From assembly GCF_000266905.1 (NCBI RefSeq), contig NC_018027.1, forward strand, positions 4,588,001-4,652,000: DNA of 64,000 bases. Direction: 5' to 3'. Below the pieces are notes generated by a model. It did not search any database and was not told the origin of the DNA. It saw nothing but the letters and a program-made list of their open reading frames with translations. The position numbers and the translations under genes are program-made. Origin of the DNA: Mycolicibacterium chubuense NBB4 (lineage in GTDB: Bacteria; Actinomycetota; Actinomycetes; Mycobacteriales; Mycobacteriaceae). Shown here piece by piece: positions 55,061 to 64,000 of the stretch (positions are counted from its first letter, which is position 1; each line of letters starts with the position of its first letter).

Positions 55061-56710
55061 ATGACCGACGGCCCACTGATCGTGCAGTCCGACAAGACTG
55101 TCCTGCTCGAGGTCGATCACGAGCAAGCCGGCGCCGCGCGCGCGGCGATAGCCCCGTTCGCGGAGTTGGAGCGCGCGCCCGAGCACGTCCACACCTACCG
55201 CGTCACCCCGCTGGCGCTGTGGAACGCCCGCGCCGCCGGGCACGACGCCGAACAGGTCGTCGATGCGTTGGTGACGCATTCGCGGTACGCGGTGCCGCAG
55301 CCGCTGCTGGTCGACATCGTCGACACCATGGCCCGGTACGGCCGGCTCCAACTGGTCAAGCATCCGGCGCACGGCCTGACGCTCGTCAGCCTCGACCGCG
55401 CGGTACTGGAAGAGGTGCTGCGCAACAAGAAGATCGCCCCCATGCTGGGCGCGCGCATCGATGACGACACGGTGATCGTGCACAACAGCGAGCGCGGCCG
55501 GATCAAGCAGATGCTGCTCAAGATCGGCTGGCCGGCCGAGGACCTCGCCGGATACGTCGACGGCGAGGCGCACCACATCGGCCTCGAGCAGGACGGGTGG
55601 CAGTTGCGCGATTACCAGCAGATGGCCGCCGACTCGTTCTGGGACGGCGGGTCGGGGGTCGTCGTGCTGCCGTGCGGTGCCGGCAAGACCCTGGTCGGGG
55701 CGGCGGCGATGGCCAAGGCCGGGGCCACCACGCTGATCCTCGTGACGAACACCGTCGCGGGCCGCCAGTGGAAGCGCGAGCTGATCGCGCGCACCTCCCT
55801 GACGGAAAGCGAGATCGGCGAGTACTCCGGCGAGCGCAAAGAAATCCGTCCCGTGACGATCGCCACCTACCAGGTGATCACCCGCCGGACCAAGGGCGAG
55901 TACAAGCACCTCGAGCTGTTCGACAGCCGCGACTGGGGGCTGATCATCTACGACGAGGTGCACCTGCTTCCCGCGCCGGTGTTCCGCATGACGGCGGACC
56001 TGCAGTCGCGGCGCCGGCTCGGTCTGACCGCGACGCTGATCCGTGAGGACGGTCGCGAAGGTGACGTGTTCTCCCTGATCGGACCGAAACGGTATGACGC
56101 ACCGTGGAAGGACATCGAGGCGCAGGGCTGGATCGCGCCGGCGGAGTGTGTGGAGGTTCGGGTCACGATGACCGACAACGAGCGCATGCTCTACGCGACC
56201 GCCGAGCCCGACGAACGCTACAAGCTGTGCGCCACGGCGCACACCAAGATCGCAGTGGTGAAGTCGATCTTGGAGCGCCACCCCGACGAACCCACGCTGG
56301 TGATCGGCGCCTATCTCGACCAACTCGACGAGCTGGGCGCCGAACTCGACGCGCCCGTTATCCAGGGATCGACGAAGACTGCCGAGCGCGAGGCGCTCTT
56401 CGACGCGTTCCGCCGCGGCGAGATCCGCACCCTGGTGGTGTCCAAGGTGGCGAACTTCTCGATTGATCTTCCGGAAGCCAGTGTGGCCGTTCAGGTTTCG
56501 GGGACATTCGGCTCCCGGCAGGAGGAAGCTCAGCGCCTCGGGCGGTTGCTGCGCCCGAAGGCCGGCGGTGGCGGCGCGGTGTTCTACTCGGTGGTCTCGA
56601 GGGACAGCCTCGACGCCGAATACGCCGCGCACCGGCAACGGTTCCTGGCCGAGCAGGGCTACGGCTACGTCATCAAGGACGCCGACGACCTGCTCGGACC
56701 CGCGATCTAG
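55061..56710 (+). CDS. xpb: DNA repair helicase XPB (Ercc3)
   Basis: 549 residues (Rv0861c has 542). SF2 helicase: Walker A LPCGAGKT (203-210), DEVH box (298-301), motif III GLTATL and motif VI QEEAQRLGRLLRP. The N-terminal damage-recognition part is about 1-170. Bacterial XPB is a 3'-to-5' DNA helicase; mycobacterial members have been shown to unwind DNA in vitro. It lies downstream of its probable partner and ends 10 bases from the giant repeat gene on the other strand. Confidence 0.93.
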   Translation: MTDGPLIVQSDKTVLLEVDHEQAGAARAAIAPFAELERAPEHVHTYRVTPLALWNARAAGHDAEQVVDALVTHSRYAVPQPLLVDIVDTMARYGRLQLVKHPAHGLTLVSLDRAVLEEVLRNKKIAPMLGARIDDDTVIVHNSERGRIKQMLLKIGWPAEDLAGYVDGEAHHIGLEQDGWQLRDYQQMAADSFWDGGSGVVVLPCGAGKTLVGAAAMAKAGATTLILVTNTVAGRQWKRELIARTSLTESEIGEYSGERKEIRPVTIATYQVITRRTKGEYKHLELFDSRDWGLIIYDEVHLLPAPVFRMTADLQSRRRLGLTATLIREDGREGDVFSLIGPKRYDAPWKDIEAQGWIAPAECVEVRVTMTDNERMLYATAEPDERYKLCATAHTKIAVVKSILERHPDEPTLVIGAYLDQLDELGAELDAPVIQGSTKTAEREALFDAFRRGEIRTLVVSKVANFSIDLPEASVAVQVSGTFGSRQEEAQRLGRLLRPKAGGGGAVFYSVVSRDSLDAEYAAHRQRFLAEQGYGYVIKDADDLLGPAI

Positions 56711-56720
56711 AACATACCCG

Positions 56721-58688
56721 TCAGCGCGTCACGCTCAGGGTTACGCCCGCCGAGGCGGTCTGGCCCGAGTCGTCCTTGACGACGATCGCGATCGACCGAA
56801 TCCAGATGAGGTCCAACACCCCGCCTCCGAATGTGGTGGCGGAGAACGTGACCGCCTGAAGCGCCTGTTCGTACTGAGCCTTCGTCGCCGTGCCGTACAA
56901 CCGAAGCGTTCGCGTAGCCGAATCCCACGATGACTGAATCGGATTGCCTGCGATAGCGACGTACGCCAGAACGTCACCGTTGACGAAGTTGTTCGAAATC
57001 CGCAACGTGGCTTCAGTCATGTAGTCCGAGTCGCCGTCGAGGACGCTGGCAGTTGCGACGGGGTTGACTGCCGGATCGCCGACCCCGTAGCTGAGTAAGC
57101 GGCCGGTGGTAGTGACCAATGGCGCAAGGGGATTGGCTGCGCTCACCGTGACCGTGCCCGGCAGCACACTGCTCACCCCGGTGTCGTCGCTGACGCTCAC
57201 GCTGACCGTGCGGATGATGCCCGCTCCCCCGCTCGCCGAGAATGTCACCGCCTCGAGTGCCTGCTCGTACTGGGCCTTGGTCGCCACGCCCGACAGCGTC
57301 AGGGTGCTGCTGGCGGCGTCCCAGCTGGCGGTGATGGGGATACCCGAGATGGTTGCGTAGGCGAGCGCGTCTCCGGACTGACCGAATGCCGTGATCTTCA
57401 CGGTGGCTTGCGACATGTAGTCGGAGTCGGCGTCGGCGATGCCTGCAGCCGAGATGAAGGTCACGGGCGCCTTCCCGAACGTGTACGTCGCCCCGCCTGT
57501 GGTGGTGATCGTCGGGGCGAGCGAGTATCTCGCGCCGGCTGTCACGGTGGCCGGCAGCAGTGCACTCACCTGGGTGTCGTCGGTGACGCTGAACGAAATG
57601 GTCCGCGCGATCAGCACCGATTGGGTCGCTGCGAACGTGACGTTGGCCAGCGCCGTCTCGTACTCCGCGAGGGTGGCTTGCCCCGACAAGGTCAACGTCA
57701 GGGAGTCGGCGTCCCAGCTGGCCGAGATCGGCCCGGCAGCGGGACCGGCATACCCCAGGACGTCGCCGGTCTGGCCCAGCAGCGAAATCGCGACCGTCGC
57801 TTTGGAAAGGTATTGCGAATCGGCGTCGCTGATCGACACCGCCGAGGCGACCTTCACCGGTGGCGCACCGATGGTGTGCACGGGCGCTCCGAGCACGGTC
57901 AGTGACGGCGGTAGTCCCACGACGGTGACCAGAGCACTGCCAGGCACGGCACTGGTCACGCCGACGTCGTCGGTCACGCTGACCGAGATGCTCCGGGCGG
58001 CACCTCCCGCAGTCGTGGAGAAGGTGACCGCTTTGATGGCCGCCTCGTACTCCGCCGTCGTGGCGATCCCCGACAATGTCAGCGTCTGACTCACCGCATC
58101 CCAGGATCCCTGGATCGAAACACCCTCCGGTGCGGTGTAACTCAGGATGTCGCCGTCCTTACCGCCGCTGGCGATCTTCACGACGGCCTGAGACATCTGC
58201 GTGGAGTCCGCATCGATGATCGTCGCCACGGATACCACCGTCACCGGCGAGCTTCCCAGCTTGAAGATGGGTGCGCCGACCGTGGTCACCGACGGAGGCA
58301 GACCCACGACCGTGATCAGTGTCCCACTGGACAGCAGACTGTCCACAGTGGAGTCGTCCGTGACGACGATCGTCACGCCCCGCACCGGCCCGCCGTCGGT
58401 GGTCGAGAAGGTGACTGCCTCGATGGCGGATTCGTAGTCGGCCTTGCTCGCAAGTCCCGACAAGGTCAGCGTCGAGGTCGCTGCGTCCCACAACGATTGA
58501 ATCGAAACCCCTGAAGGTGCAACGTAACTCAGGACGTCGCCGGCTTGGCTGCCTGTGATGGTCAGCGCGGCCTTCGAGAGCTGATCGGAGTCGACGTCCG
58601 AGATCGTCGCCGAGGTCACGATCTTCACGGGCGAGCCGCCTAGCTTGAAGACGGGCGCACCCACGGTGACGATCGACGGCGGCAGACC
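56721..58688 (-). repeat. Five divergent C-terminal cadherin-like repeats
   Basis: About 655 residues forming five related but clearly different units, starting at GLPPSIVTVGAPVFKLGGSP. They keep the DxDS and WDA/LTLSG core (SDVDSDQLSK, IDADSTQMSQ, SDADSQYLSK, ADADSDYMSQ, LDGDSDYMTE). Elsewhere they differ strongly from the array beside them. Unit length is roughly 128-133 residues. Confidence 0.85.
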
Positions 58689-61600
58689 GATGACGGTCAC
58701 CACTACGGGCACCGATGCCGCACTGGCAACACTCACGTCATCGGTGACCACCACCGACACGCTCCGCGCCGAACCACCCTCCGTCGTCGAGAAGGTCACC
58801 GCCTTCAAGGCCGCCTCATACTCGGCCTTCGTCGCCGACCCGGTCAACGTGAGGGTCTGGGTGGTGGAATCCCACGCCCCGTGGATTATGCCGGTGTCGC
58901 TGTAAGCCAACGTATCCGACGGTTTCCCGCCGGCCAGCGTGATCGTGGCCCCGGAGAGGGTGTCGGAATCCAGATCAGTCACCGTCGCGACTGAGAACAC
59001 TCGCACCGGCGCCCCGCCCAGCTTGAAGATCGGCAGACCGGTCGCGGTCACCAACGGCGCCAGGCCGATCACCGAAATCACCACCGGCACCGAGGCCGCA
59101 CTGGCGACATTCACATCATCAGTGACCACCACGGTCACACTGCGGGTGGCCCCACCCTCCGTCGTCGAGAAGGTCACCGCCTGCAGGGCCGCCTCGTACT
59201 CGGCCTTCGTCGCTGACCCGGTCAACGTCAGCGTTTGAGTCTGAGCGTCCCAGGATCCCTGGATCGGATCACCGAGCGCGGAAACGTAATCTAGGACATC
59301 GCTGGACTTCCCGCCGGCGAGCGTGACCGTGGCACCGGAGAGGGTATTGGAATCCAGATCGGTGATCGTCGCGACTGAGAACACCCGCACCGGGGCCCCG
59401 CCCAGCTTGAAGACCGGCAACCCCGTCGCCGTCACCACCGGTGGCAGGCCGATCACCGAAATCACCACCGGCACCGACGCCGCACTGGCGACAATCACGT
59501 CATCGGTAACACTGACCGACACGCTGCGGGTGCCTCCGCCGTCGGTGGTCGTGAACGTGACCGCCTTGAGCGCGACCTCGTACTCGGCTTTGGTCGCTGA
59601 CCCGGTCAATGTCAGGGTTTGAGTCTGAGCGTCCCATTCCCCGTGGATTGTGCCGGTGTCGCTGAAGCCCAGGACATCGCTGGACTTCCCGCCAGCCAGC
59701 GTGACCGTCGCACCGGAGAGGGTGTCGGAATCCAGATCAGTGATCGTCGCCACCGAGAACACCCGCACCGGCGCCCCGCCCAGCTTAAAGATCGGCAGAC
59801 CGGTCGCGGTCACCACCGGTGGCAGGCCGATCACCGAAATCAGCACCGGCACCGACGCCGCACTGGCGACATTCACATCATCAGTGACCACCACGGTCAC
59901 GCTGCGGGTGGCACCACCCTCGGTGGTCCTGAACGTGATCGCCTGCAGGGCGGCCTCGTACTCGGCTTTGGTCGCTGACCCGGTCAACGTCAATGTCTGA
60001 GTCTCAGCCTCCCACGACCCCTGAATCGGATCACCGAGCGCAGAAACGTAACCCAGGACATCGCTGGACTTCCCGCCGGCCAGCGTGACCGTCGCGCCGG
60101 AGAGGGTGTCAGAATCCAGATCGGTCACCGTGGCCACCGAGAACACCCGCACCGGAGCACCGCCGAGCTTGAACACCGGCAACCCCGTCGCCGTCACCAC
60201 CGGCGCCAGGCCGATCACCGAGACCAGCACCGGCACCGACGCCGCACTGGCGACATTCACGTCATCGGTGACCGCCACGGTCACGCTGCGGACGGCTCCA
60301 CCCTCCGTCGTCGAGAAGGTCACCGCCTTGAGCGCGGCCTCGTACTCGGCCTTCGTCGCCGACCCGGTCAACGTCAGTGTTTGAGTCTGCGCGTCCCACG
60401 ATCCCTGAATCGGATCCCCGAGCGCAGAAGCATAATTCAGGACATCGCTGGACATCCCGCCAGCCAGCGTGACCGTCGCACCGGAGAGGGTGTCGGAATC
60501 CAGATCAGTGATCGTCGCCGCCGAGAACACCCGCACCGGCGCCCCACCCAGCTTGAACACCGGCAACCCCGTCGCCGTCACCACCGGTGGCAAGCCGATC
60601 ACCGAAATCAGCACCGGCACCGAGGCCGCACTGGCGACATTCACGTCATCGGTGACCGTCACGGTCACACTGCGGGTGGCACCACCCTCGGTGGTCGTGA
60701 ATGTGACCGCCTGCAAGGCGGCCTCGTACTCGGCCTTGCTCGCCGACCCGGTCAACGTCAATGTCTGAGTCTGAGCGTCCCACGAACCCTGAATCGGATC
60801 CCCGAGCGCAGAAACGTAACCCAGGACATCGCTGGACTTCCCGCCGGCCAGCGTGACCGTCGCACCGGAGAGGGTGTCGGAGTCCAGATCGGTGATCGTC
60901 GCGACTGAGAACACCCGCACCGGAGCACCGCCCAGCTTGAAGATCGGCAGGCCGGTCGCGTTCACGAGTGGTGGCAGGCCGATCACCGAGACCAGCACCG
61001 GCACCGAGACCGCACTGGCGACATTCACGTCATCGGTGACCGCCACGGTCACGCTGCGGGTGGCACCCCCTTCCGTCGTCGAGAAGGTGACCGTCTGCAA
61101 GGCGGCCTCGTAGTCGGCCTTCGTCGCTGAACCAGTCAACGTCAATGTCTGAGTCTGAGCGTCCCACGAACCCTGAATCGGATCCCCGAGCGCAGAAACG
61201 TAACCCAGGACATCGCTGGACTTCCCGGCGGCCAGCGTGACCGTCGCGCCGGAGAGGGTGTCGGAGTCCAGATCGGTGATCGTCGCGACTGAGAACACCC
61301 GCACCGGAGCACCGCCCAGCTTGAACACCGGCAACCCCGTCGCCGTCACCACCGGCGCCAACCCGATCACCGAAATCACCACCGGCACCGAGGCCGCACT
61401 GGCGACAATCACGTCATCGGTAACACTGACCGACACGCTGCGGGTGCCTCCGCCGTCGGTGGTCGTGAACGTGACCGCCTTGAGCGCGACCTCGTACTCG
61501 GCTTTGGTCGCTGACCCGGTCAATGTCAGGGTTTGAGTTTGAGCGTCCCATTCCCCGTGGATTGTGCCGGTGTCGCTGAAGCCCAGGACATCGCTGGACT

Positions 61601-64000
61601 TCCCGCCGGTCAGCGTGACCGTGGCGCTGGAGAGGGTGTCAGAATCCAGATCGGTCACCGTGGCCACCGAGAACACTTGCACCGGGGCACCGCCGAGTTT
61701 GAAGATCGGCAGACCGGTCGCGGTCACGAGTGGTGGCAGGCCGATCACCGAAATCAGCACCGGCACCGACGCCGCGCTCGCGACATTCACATCATCGATG
61801 ACCACCACCGACACGCTGCGGGTGGCTCCACCCTCCGTCGTCGAGAAGGTCACCGCCTTGAGCGCGGCCTCGTACTCGGCCTTCGTCGCCGACCCGGTCA
61901 ACGTCAATGTTTGAGTCTGAGCGTCCCAGGTGCTGCGGATCGTGCCGGTGTCGCTGAAGCCCAACGCATCCGACGGTTTCCCGCCGGCCAGCGTGACCGT
62001 GGCGCCGGAGAGGGTGTCGGAATCCAGATCAGTCACCGTCGCGACCGAGAACACCCGCACCGGCGCCCCACCCAGCTTGAAGACCGGCACCCCGGTCGCG
62101 GTCACCACCGGCGCCAACCCGATCACCGAGACCAGCACCGGCACCGACGCCGCACTCGCGACATTCACATCATCAGTGACCACCACGGTCACTCTGCGGG
62201 TGGCCCCACCCTCCGTCGTCGAGAAGGTCACCGCCTGCAGGGCGGCCTCATACTCGGTCTTCGTCGCCGACCCCGTCAACGTCAGCGTCTGAGTATCAGC
62301 GTCCCACGATCCGTGAATCGGATCACCGAGCGCGGAAACGTAATTCAGGACATCGCTGGACTTTCCGCCGGCCAGCGTGACGGTGGCACCGGAGAGGGTG
62401 TCGGAATCCAGATCGGTGATGGTCGCGACGGAGAACACCCGCACCGGGGCCCCGCCGAGCTTGAAGATCGGCAGACCGGTCGCGGTCACTACCGGTGGCA
62501 GGCCGATCACCGAGATCAGTACCGGCACCGAGGCCGCACTGGCGACATTCACATCATCAGTGACCGCCACCGACACGCTGCGGGTGGCACCGCCGTCGGT
62601 GGTCGTGAACGTGACCGCCTGCAGGGCCGCCTCGTACTCGGCCTTGGTCGCTGACCCGGTCAACGTCAGCGTTTGAGTCTGAGCGTCCCAGGATCCCTGG
62701 ATCGGATCACCGAGCGCGGAAACGTAATCTAGGACATCGCTGGACTTCCCGCCGGCGAGCGTGACCGTGGCCCCGGAGAGGGTGTTGGAATCCAAATCGG
62801 ACACCGTGACCACCGAGAACACCCGCACCGGGGCCCCGCCCAGCTTGAAGACCGGCAGACCGGTCGCGGTCACCACCGGTGGCAGGCCGATCACCGAAAT
62901 CAGCACCGGCACCGACGCCGCACTGGCGACATTCACATCGTCGGTCACACTGACCGACACGCTGCGGGTGGCCCCGCCGTCGGTCGTCGAGAAGGTGACC
63001 GTCTGCAAGGCGGCCTCGTACTCGGCCTTGGTCGCCGACCCGGTCAACGTGAGAGTTTGTGTCTGAGCGTCCCAGGTGCCGTGGATTGTGCCGGTGTCGC
63101 TGTACGCCAACGTATCCGATGGTTTGCCGCCGGCCAGCGTGACCGTGGCGCTGGAGAGGGTGTCGGAGTCCAGATCGGTGATCGTCGCGACTGAGAACAC
63201 CCGCACCGGAGCACCGCCCAGCTTGAAGACCGGCAACCCCGTCGCCGTCACCACCGGCGCCAACCCGATCACCGAAATCACCACCGGCACCGAGGCCGCA
63301 CTGGCGACATTCACGTCATCGGTCACACTGACCGACACGCTGCGGGTGCCTCCGCCGTCGGTGGTCGTGAACGTGACCGCCTTGAGCGCGACCTCGTACT
63401 CGGCTTTGGTCGCTGACCCGGTCAATGTCAGGGTTTGAGTCTGAGCGTCCCATTCCCCGTGGATTGTGCCGGTGTCGCTGAAGCCCAGGACATCGCTGGA
63501 CTTCCCGCCGGCCAGCGTGACCGTGGCCCCGGAGAGGGTGCCGGAATCCAAATCGGACACCGTGACCACCGAGAACACCCGCACCGGCGCCCCGCCCAGC
63601 TTAAAGATCGGCAGACCGGTCGCGGTCACCACCGGTGGCAGGCCGATCACCGAAATCAGCACCGGCACCGACGCCGCACTCGCCACGTTCACATCGTCGA
63701 TCACCATCACCGACACGCTGCGGGTGGCACCACCTTCCGTCGTCGAGAAGGTGACCGCCTGCAGGGCGGCCTCGTACTCGGCCTTGGTCGCCGCCCCGGT
63801 CAACGTCAGTGTCTGAGTCTCAGCGTCCCACGACCCCTGAATCGGATCACCGAGCGCAGAAACGTAACCCAGGACATCGCTGGACTTCCCACCGGCCAGC
63901 GTGACCGTCGCCCCGGAGAGGGTGTCAGAATCCAGATCGGTCACCGTGGCCACCGAGAACACTTGCACCGGGGCACCGCCGAGTTTGAAGATCGGCAGAC
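56721..64000 (-). CDS. Giant cadherin-like tandem-repeat protein, probable surface adhesin (5' end outside window)
   Basis: At least 2425 residues, open to the right edge, so the N-terminus is missing. It consists wholly of about 19 repeats. A typical unit reads GLPPVVTATGLPIFKLGGAP, then DLDSDTLSGATVTLAGGK, then SWDAQTQTLTLTGSATKAEY and TTEGGATRSVSV, ending in DDVNVASAASVPVLISVIG. This is the CSPG/cadherin-like module (DxDS acidic motif, WDA-TLTLSG core) of large bacterial adhesins. I see no cysteine, membrane segment, LPXTG or RTX motif in the visible part; it ends TLSVTR. Calcium binding and adhesion are inferred. It occupies the place where M. tuberculosis has fadB. Confidence 0.85.
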   Translation of the reverse strand, partial: LPIFKLGGAPVQVFSVATVTDLDSDTLSGATVTLAGGKSSDVLGYVSALGDPIQGSWDAETQTLTLTGAATKAEYEAALQAVTFSTTEGGATRSVSVMVIDDVNVASAASVPVLISVIGLPPVVTATGLPIFKLGGAPVRVFSVVTVSDLDSGTLSGATVTLAGGKSSDVLGFSDTGTIHGEWDAQTQTLTLTGSATKAEYEVALKAVTFTTTDGGGTRSVSVSVTDDVNVASAASVPVVISVIGLAPVVTATGLPVFKLGGAPVRVFSVATITDLDSDTLSSATVTLAGGKPSDTLAYSDTGTIHGTWDAQTQTLTLTGSATKAEYEAALQTVTFSTTDGGATRSVSVSVTDDVNVASAASVPVLISVIGLPPVVTATGLPVFKLGGAPVRVFSVVTVSDLDSNTLSGATVTLAGGKSSDVLDYVSALGDPIQGSWDAQTQTLTLTGSATKAEYEAALQAVTFTTTDGGATRSVSVAVTDDVNVASAASVPVLISVIGLPPVVTATGLPIFKLGGAPVRVFSVATITDLDSDTLSGATVTLAGGKSSDVLNYVSALGDPIHGSWDADTQTLTLTGSATKTEYEAALQAVTFSTTEGGATRRVTVVVTDDVNVASAASVPVLVSVIGLAPVVTATGVPVFKLGGAPVRVFSVATVTDLDSDTLSGATVTLAGGKPSDALGFSDTGTIRSTWDAQTQTLTLTGSATKAEYEAALKAVTFSTTEGGATRSVSVVVIDDVNVASAASVPVLISVIGLPPLVTATGLPIFKLGGAPVQVFSVATVTDLDSDTLSSATVTLTGGKSSDVLGFSDTGTIHGEWDAQTQTLTLTGSATKAEYEVALKAVTFTTTDGGGTRSVSVSVTDDVIVASAASVPVVISVIGLAPVVTATGLPVFKLGGAPVRVFSVATITDLDSDTLSGATVTLAAGKSSDVLGYVSALGDPIQGSWDAQTQTLTLTGSATKADYEAALQTVTFSTTEGGATRSVTVAVTDDVNVASAVSVPVLVSVIGLPPLVNATGLPIFKLGGAPVRVFSVATITDLDSDTLSGATVTLAGGKSSDVLGYVSALGDPIQGSWDAQTQTLTLTGSASKAEYEAALQAVTFTTTEGGATRSVTVTVTDDVNVASAASVPVLISVIGLPPVVTATGLPVFKLGGAPVRVFSAATITDLDSDTLSGATVTLAGGMSSDVLNYASALGDPIQGSWDAQTQTLTLTGSATKAEYEAALKAVTFSTTEGGAVRSVTVAVTDDVNVASAASVPVLVSVIGLAPVVTATGLPVFKLGGAPVRVFSVATVTDLDSDTLSGATVTLAGGKSSDVLGYVSALGDPIQGSWEAETQTLTLTGSATKAEYEAALQAITFRTTEGGATRSVTVVVTDDVNVASAASVPVLISVIGLPPVVTATGLPIFKLGGAPVRVFSVATITDLDSDTLSGATVTLAGGKSSDVLGFSDTGTIHGEWDAQTQTLTLTGSATKAEYEVALKAVTFTTTDGGGTRSVSVSVTDDVIVASAASVPVVISVIGLPPVVTATGLPVFKLGGAPVRVFSVATITDLDSNTLSGATVTLAGGKSSDVLDYVSALGDPIQGSWDAQTQTLTLTGSATKAEYEAALQAVTFSTTEGGATRSVTVVVTDDVNVASAASVPVVISVIGLAPLVTATGLPIFKLGGAPVRVFSVATVTDLDSDTLSGATITLAGGKPSDTLAYSDTGIIHGAWDSTTQTLTLTGSATKAEYEAALKAVTFSTTEGGSARSVSVVVTDDVSVASAASVPVVVTVIGLPPSIVTVGAPVFKLGGSPVKIVTSATISDVDSDQLSKAALTITGSQAGDVLSYVAPSGVSIQSLWDAATSTLTLSGLASKADYESAIEAVTFSTTDGGPVRGVTIVVTDDSTVDSLLSSGTLITVVGLPPSVTTVGAPIFKLGSSPVTVVSVATIIDADSTQMSQAVVKIASGGKDGDILSYTAPEGVSIQGSWDAVSQTLTLSGIATTAEYEAAIKAVTFSTTAGGAARSISVSVTDDVGVTSAVPGSALVTVVGLPPSLTVLGAPVHTIGAPPVKVASAVSISDADSQYLSKATVAISLLGQTGDVLGYAGPAAGPISASWDADSLTLTLSGQATLAEYETALANVTFAATQSVLIARTISFSVTDDTQVSALLPATVTAGARYSLAPTITTTGGATYTFGKAPVTFISAAGIADADSDYMSQATVKITAFGQSGDALAYATISGIPITASWDAASSTLTLSGVATKAQYEQALEAVTFSASGGAGIIRTVSVSVSDDTGVSSVLPGTVTVSAANPLAPLVTTTGRLLSYGVGDPAVNPVATASVLDGDSDYMTEATLRISNNFVNGDVLAYVAIAGNPIQSSWDSATRTLRLYGTATKAQYEQALQAVTFSATTFGGGVLDLIWIRSIAIVVKDDSGQTASAGVTLSVTR
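58689..64000 (-). repeat. Array of about 14 near-identical 378/384-bp repeats
   Basis: The segment CCGGAGAGGGTGTCGGAATC or a close variant recurs at 58951, 59335, 59713, 60097, 60481, 60865, 61249, 61627, 62005, 62389, 62773, 63151, 63529 and 63913. Spacing is either 384 bases (unit with YVSALGDPIQGSW) or 378 bases (unit with SDTGTIHGEW, two residues shorter). Many stretches are base-identical between units. The array continues past the window edge. Confidence 0.93.

Follow-up and report, generated by a model that had tools for sequence, protein, structure and literature searches.

A probably extracytoplasmic 5,778-residue tandem-repeat protein of Mycolicibacterium chubuense NBB4 and its recurring N-terminal signal

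We analyzed a 64,000-nucleotide stretch of the Mycolicibacterium chubuense NBB4 genome (the window; G000:C3:4588001-4652000 of a 6.34 Mb genome, G000, in three contigs) that ends inside a giant gene on the minus strand beside an xpb-type helicase gene. Judged from its sequence, the giant is probably an extracytoplasmic tandem-repeat protein, and it begins with a signal-peptide-like stretch common to about 20 proteins of the same genome, a hint at the way a fiber of this length might be exported. The window holds the C-terminal 42% of the gene (56721..64000; 2,425 of 5,778 amino acids (aa)) as one open frame of 2,425 aa (56721-63998). Followed past position 64000, in extended coordinates that continue the window numbering along the contig, the frame stayed open from stop to stop for 5,791 codons (extended 56721-74096), bearing out a preliminary description of this DNA that had proposed one continuous frame of at least 2425 residues with its N-terminus past the edge. 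An ATG at extended 74057, with the ribosome site GGAGG upstream, sets the gene at extended 56721-74057 and the product at 5,778 aa and 574 kDa, and an identical protein was present in the protein database (P0003). The part between the window edge and this ATG encodes the signal, an acidic linker, a two-helix module, a Big_9 domain and units 1-24 of the repeat array.

The giant was resolved into 42 units of 126-136 aa each covering residues 433-5778, and the same 42 were recovered again by a profile built from 18 of its own units and 4 units of relatives. Within the window lie 18 whole units and one clipped unit, matching the 19 counted previously: unit 24 at 63642..64000 (whole at extended 63642-64025), units 25-37 of 126-128 aa each at 58686..63641, and the divergent C-terminal tail of units 38-42 at 56724..58685 (58302-58685, 57915-58301, 57522-57914, 57132-57521 and 56724-57131), all on the minus strand. 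Mean DNA identity was far beyond chance, at 81.5% within units 1-18 (block A) and 83.7% within units 19-37 (block B, visible in the window as units 25-37), with 65% between the blocks and a mean of 57% among the tail units. When units were compared with those of 38 of the 40 other proteins of the family search described below (P0042 and P0043 were left out), the nearest relative of each of the 42 units lay inside the giant itself at a mean of 88% identity, against 46% for the best unit outside it. Close pairs of proteins, such as P0004 and P0005, behaved as expected, with the nearest unit sitting in the partner protein. By these identities the units are multiplied and homogenized inside the giant gene. 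An acidic pattern (DxDS, [GS]DxL and a D near the end) was kept in 40 of the 42 units and might bind calcium.

Structure prediction of the units gave beta-sandwiches, with a mean pLDDT of 87.8 for a model of units 40-42. Structural matches of the unit models were dominated by surface and adhesion proteins, several immunoglobulin (Ig)-like folds matched at similar Z, and many cadherin chains were among the Foldseek matches for both models. The preliminary description had called the modules CSPG/cadherin-like, a label that did not hold up in profile searches. The cadherin model PF00028 had 0 matches in the whole genome, and a Pfam scan of 22 units (18 own, 4 of relatives) gave no convincing match, with no unit reaching the cut-off of cadherin, CSPG or any other model; the best were weak and scattered, and the cadherin model was absent from them. 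A general Ig-like beta-sandwich is the safe wording for what these models predict. The unit was also rare, with its profile matching 8 of 396 genomes of the phylum at E<=1e-8, the own genome included.

Reading the N-terminus upstream of the window, as had been suggested, uncovered four elements ahead of the units, the first of them a signal-peptide-like stretch. In P0003 a long basic n-region (residues 1-50) leads into the signal-like stretch HIGRVGALAVSLGVGLAVANSAGVAYAD (residues 51-78), which would likely be cut after AYA (AYA|DS). By inspection and composition it has the features of a signal peptide, namely the basic n-region, a hydrophobic stretch of 25 residues and an AxA cut site. An acidic linker of 177 residues follows (residues 79-255; net charge -20, 21% D/E, 24% S/T and 12% P), then the two-helix module at about residues 270-315, placed from a model of a relative with WVRRQINHTFF in its second helix, and a Big_9 Ig-like domain at residues 312-390 (28.6 bits, cut-off 23.6). 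Residues 1-445 matched Big_9 alone at E<=0.1, and no PE/PPE domain was found there. The opposite end is the last strand of unit 42 (...VTLSVTR). As read previously from the window, the C-terminus carries no RTX motif, sorting signal or membrane anchor: the giant has no LPxTG-type motif, 0 occurrences of GGxGxD, no C-terminal secretion signal that we could see and no terminal hydrophobic anchor among its top hydropathy segments. Its sole Cys is at residue 2. Sortase (PF04203) had 0 matches in the own genome and matched 0 of 25 genomes of the genus, compared with 16 of 16 genomes from other genera, and a review likewise reports that mycobacteria lack sortase (PMC8875947). How the protein would cross and attach to the envelope had been called unclear. 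The N-terminal signal, which lies outside the window, partly answers the crossing.

The signal of the giant reads GRVGxLAxxLGxG....AxA|D, and its general form GRxGxxA...GxG...AxA recurred across the genome. Searched at E<=1, a profile of six own signals and two of relatives (A4) matched the own genome at 22 places, 20 of which reached E<0.002. Six of these 20 are rows of the profile, one is the N-terminus of the giant itself (about extended 73.8-73.9 kb) and one, L115, lacks GRxG; two weaker matches, L116 and L117 (E 0.3-0.8), were not of the signal type. The signals that were read lay within the first ~155 codons of the stop-to-stop frame, except where a far upstream extension of the frame put them later. 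Each was followed by a stretch rich in Ser/Thr, Lys or acid that by eye seems disordered. C-terminal to this stretch the cargo was varied and included S15 hydrolases, alpha/beta hydrolases, DUF4185, phosphoesterase and glucose/sorbosone dehydrogenase domains, a GH5-type domain with PGRS, Ig arrays, beta-propellers and several parts that matched no Pfam family. Among 18 aligned own signals eight positions were invariant (G5, R6, G8, A11, G15, G17, A27 and A29), those of the AxA site among them.

A profile of these 18 rows was run against 60 genomes of the genus, taken here and throughout as Mycobacterium in the broad sense, and matched 34 at E<=1e-5 (33 of 59 once the own genome is set aside), with 1-28 copies each as lower bounds; the 18 own-genome matches are the profile rows and not independent. 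Since 26 of the 60 genomes had no match, the signal is not simply any mycobacterial signal peptide. Across the order the signal profile matched 6 of 121 genomes, all from the own genus, and none of the 48 other genera sampled (1 of 49 genera in total). In a protein database search with one signal, 100 of 220 candidate proteins scored E<=10, of which 95 hold GR[VI]GxLA (or GxWA) at a median position of 8, and the organism names given were all mycobacterial. Four signal letter strings were contained in no paper of the open-licence literature searched. As far as that literature shows, the signal class, present in Mycobacterium alone among the sampled genera, and its relation to PE-type export are new here.

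That relation came from the cargo. Two own signal-bearing proteins, L103:1279-3087 (-) and L114:1193-2785 (-), are LipY-like lipases with the signal standing where a PE or PPE domain would be; against NCBIfam both matched LipY best, at E 1e-85 and 5e-74, though neither reached the equivalog cut-off. In a third, L111:960-3866 (+), the signal is followed by PGRS repeats (PF21526; 52.9 bits, cut-off 27) and then by a GH5 cellulase-type domain, for which endoglycoceramidase I ranked first in NCBIfam but below the cut-off. Seven PF08237 proteins were among the signal-search results, and the three scanned (P0113, P0120 and P0138) carry this PE-PPE hydrolase domain after the signal and gave no match to a PE domain. 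As a precedent, an earlier study reports that the LipY catalytic domain is directed to the surface by interchangeable N-terminal parts: PE in M. tuberculosis, PPE in M. marinum and, in M. gilvum, a canonical signal peptide (PMC3586085). PE domains were counted in the same 60 genomes (G000-G059), where the highest count was at least 71. The signal was present in 0 of 21 genomes with at least 10 PE matches, and all 34 signal-bearing genomes had at most 8. We tentatively propose, as a reading with a minority share of our confidence, that the GRVG signal could be a distinct surface-targeting signal of mycobacteria that lack an expanded PE export module. It would deliver the same kinds of cargo (LipY-type lipases, PE-PPE hydrolases, a PGRS protein and the 574-kDa fiber) by a Sec-dependent route with a recognition or retention partner of its own. 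Within the genus the two ways would be mutually exclusive, and among the clients of the signal the giant would be one of the longest. Weighing against a tidy exclusion, 5 of the 60 genomes had neither the signal nor 10 PE matches, and the split is confounded with phylogeny, relatedness being uncorrected, so that its Fisher value does not test independent events. In the control of the PE search Escherichia coli gave a match and the 13 remaining control genomes gave none; weak PE matches may therefore be false. The exclusion is a pattern, not proof of replacement.

The giant is a member of an existing mycobacterial family that is annotated but uncharacterized. A family search with residues 260-700 scored 951 proteins and returned 41, made up of the own giant, 14 mycobacterial-type giants (P0004-P0017) and 26 others whose similarity lies chiefly in the unit, a few of these being named DUF4347 giants of Proteobacteria. 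Twelve of the 14 giants have a mycobacterial name (P0009 and P0014 carry none), with named sources including M. vaccae, M. iranicum, M. lacusdiani, M. grossiae, M. duvalii and M. kyogaense, and their database names are 'Ig-like domain-containing protein' or 'beta strand repeat-containing protein'. They measure 3,226-6,471 aa with 22-47 units each by the same unit profile, and share with the own giant the N-module around the two helices and, where examined, the placement beside xpb. The N-module motif WVRRxIxHTFFN was present in 15 of 15 mycobacterial-type giants, the own included; the own match to the N-module profile was 6.7e-112, the own sequence being a row of that profile. The giants differ from ours in their units, the best being about 46% identical, and most of their listed C-termini are unlike its C-terminal tail. 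Like the own giant, most of P0004-P0017 show a GRVG-type signal by eye. The deposited starts of P0007, P0012 and P0017 lie inside or after the signal, and the export signal is thereby lost in annotation; for the M. iranicum giant the DNA frame shows it. The open-licence literature searched, judged from search listings, showed no paper on mycobacterial giant Ig-like or cadherin-like proteins, and the main text of PMC11573180 does not mention mycobacteria.

The N-module profile matched 50 of 396 genomes of the genus at E<=1e-30, 24 of them at E<1e-80 with the own included. Of 22 N-module loci in named genomes, 20 were in Mycobacterium or Mycolicibacterium records and 2 were weak matches elsewhere. 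Order-wide, 11 of 200 genomes matched at E<=1e-12, ten from the own genus and one from a sister genus. Seven further own-genome frames (512-4,051 aa) matched part of the profile, on G000:C3 near 1.203-1.211, 1.281, 1.291-1.294, 1.297-1.299, 3.373-3.375, 5.115 and 5.545 Mb, and some of these, the 512-aa frame aside, carry Big_9 arrays or beta-propellers.

As a whole, the explanation that fits best, to which we give about an even chance, is that the giant is a very long secreted contact fiber retained at its N-terminal end. The chain would pass in unfolded form through the general Sec pathway, with signal peptidase cutting it after AYA, and we consider export by the signal very likely. The units would fold outside into a rod of ~0.2 micrometer, an estimate based on about 4.5 nm per unit and several times the envelope thickness. 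With no anchor found at the C-terminus and no sortase match in the genome, retention would act at the N-terminal end by way of the linker and the helices; we regard retention by the N-terminal part as a reasonable candidate a little short of an even bet. The role would likely be contact, in adhesion, aggregation or biofilm, with a reach of up to about 0.2 micrometer, and for adhesion or aggregation in particular the balance is about level. Repeat number would change by recombination between similar units. Several observations weigh against this reading. The n-region of 50 residues is unusually long and makes an uncleaved membrane anchor possible. The two-helix module was modeled at low confidence (pLDDT blocks 43-60 over model residues 1-40) and its second helix is mildly amphipathic at most; any role given to the module is a guess. 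The beta-sandwich matches are unspecific, and no dedicated export gene was recognized among the scanned neighbors.

In the main rival reading the same signal exports the giant but nothing retains it, and it acts in the extracellular matrix as a released fibrous polymer. No anchor was found at either end once the signal is cut off, which, together with the missing sortase match, fits release; yet all 15 giants keep between signal and units a conserved module that secretion does not obviously need, and we think this rival unlikely while giving it real weight. The long basic n-region and the 25-residue hydrophobic stretch could instead mean that the stretch is uncut, leaving the giant in the inner membrane as a periplasmic tether or ruler whose chain lies within the wall or crosses it. 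An AxA and an acidic or polar residue are nonetheless kept at the expected place, with both Ala invariant in the 18 signals, and such a tether appears rather improbable. The strong homogenization, the varying length among relatives and three genomes with an empty site and no detected remnant would also suit a passively expanding repeat gene of little function, open by chance or by recent origin. Against it, the frame is kept open over 17 kb with a G+C like that of neighboring genes (0.656 vs 0.658), the acidic pattern persists through the units, and frames are open at the same place in three other genomes (G085, G140 and G205), so we rate passive expansion as very improbable. A true cadherin or CSPG adhesin would account for the cadherin chains in the Foldseek lists of both models and, with the Pfam results above, is the least credible of the four.

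The giant and its signal have partial counterparts elsewhere. Gram-negative RTX or type I-secreted adhesins (LapA and the extending RTX adhesins) likewise have a long tandem beta-sandwich extender, and one extending RTX adhesin structure was among the fold matches of the giant, but the giant shows neither RTX motif nor C-terminal secretion signal and its export signal is N-terminal. Gram-positive LPXTG surface proteins, such as a 7,651-residue Mobiluncus adhesin, share the N-terminal signal and very long Ig-like stalk and differ in having the LPxTG motif and sortase, for which the giant and its genome had no match. PE/PPE type VII modules are likewise exchangeable N-terminal export parts on LipY-like, PE-PPE-domain and PGRS cargo, whereas the GRVG signal is of signal-peptide type and occurred together with at least 10 PE matches in 0 of 60 genomes. 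The YSIRK-G/S extended signal peptides of Gram-positive cocci carry a conserved motif common to large surface proteins. By analogy the GRVG signal may resemble them in placing a motif within the signal peptide of large surface proteins, though with a different motif, in a different phylum and with no sortase. Mycobacteria appear to be sortase-less, and for the delivery and retention of large non-type VII proteins outside the mycomembrane this locus offers an extreme client of 5,778 residues and points to a recurring N-terminal signal. Should the signal prove to target the surface, a single short motif would identify an entire class of proteins secreted by mycobacteria, and signal-bearing versus PE-rich genomes would be an evolutionary contrast worth explaining.

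The giant had been thought to stand where fadB follows xpb in M. tuberculosis, whose fadA-fadB pair adjoins xpb. This placement needed revision, as fadA and fadB are present 21.8 kb from xpb on the strand facing it, with an AraC-type regulator, an acyl-CoA ligase, an LLM oxidoreductase and the giant in between. The xpb-type helicase gene (55061..56710, +), a neighbor outside the system, is convergent with the giant and 10 bases from it. In extended coordinates the giant is followed by the LLM F420-type oxidoreductase (74725-75717, -), the acyl-CoA ligase (75728-77272, -), the AraC-type regulator (77211-78206, -), fadB (78548-80707, -), fadA (80717-82021, -), a flavin oxidoreductase (82379-83485, -) and an aminotransferase (83537-84712, +). 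The locus was compared in nine other genomes, and several relatives share the position of the giant between the LLM oxidoreductase gene and xpb. The giants of G085, G140 and G205 end at most 15 bases from xpb, those of G256 and G196 lie 4.0-4.5 kb from it, and that of G225 is 25 kb away. No giant was found beside xpb in G133, G316 and G388, and tblastn with pieces of the giant detected nothing in these three empty sites. LLM and fadB are still on that side in all three; G316 and G388, but not G133, also showed the ligase and regulator, which lie there with LLM between fadB and xpb. The stretch beside xpb has the look of an insertion hot spot. On the other side of xpb, G085 and G140 encode a protein of 1,081 aa (L097) and 1,052 aa (L098), respectively, with the same signal, the N-module and about five units. 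The genes beside xpb vary between genomes (L119, L120, L123 and L124) and include, judged by eye, LysR-type, short-chain dehydrogenase-like and transporter-like genes.
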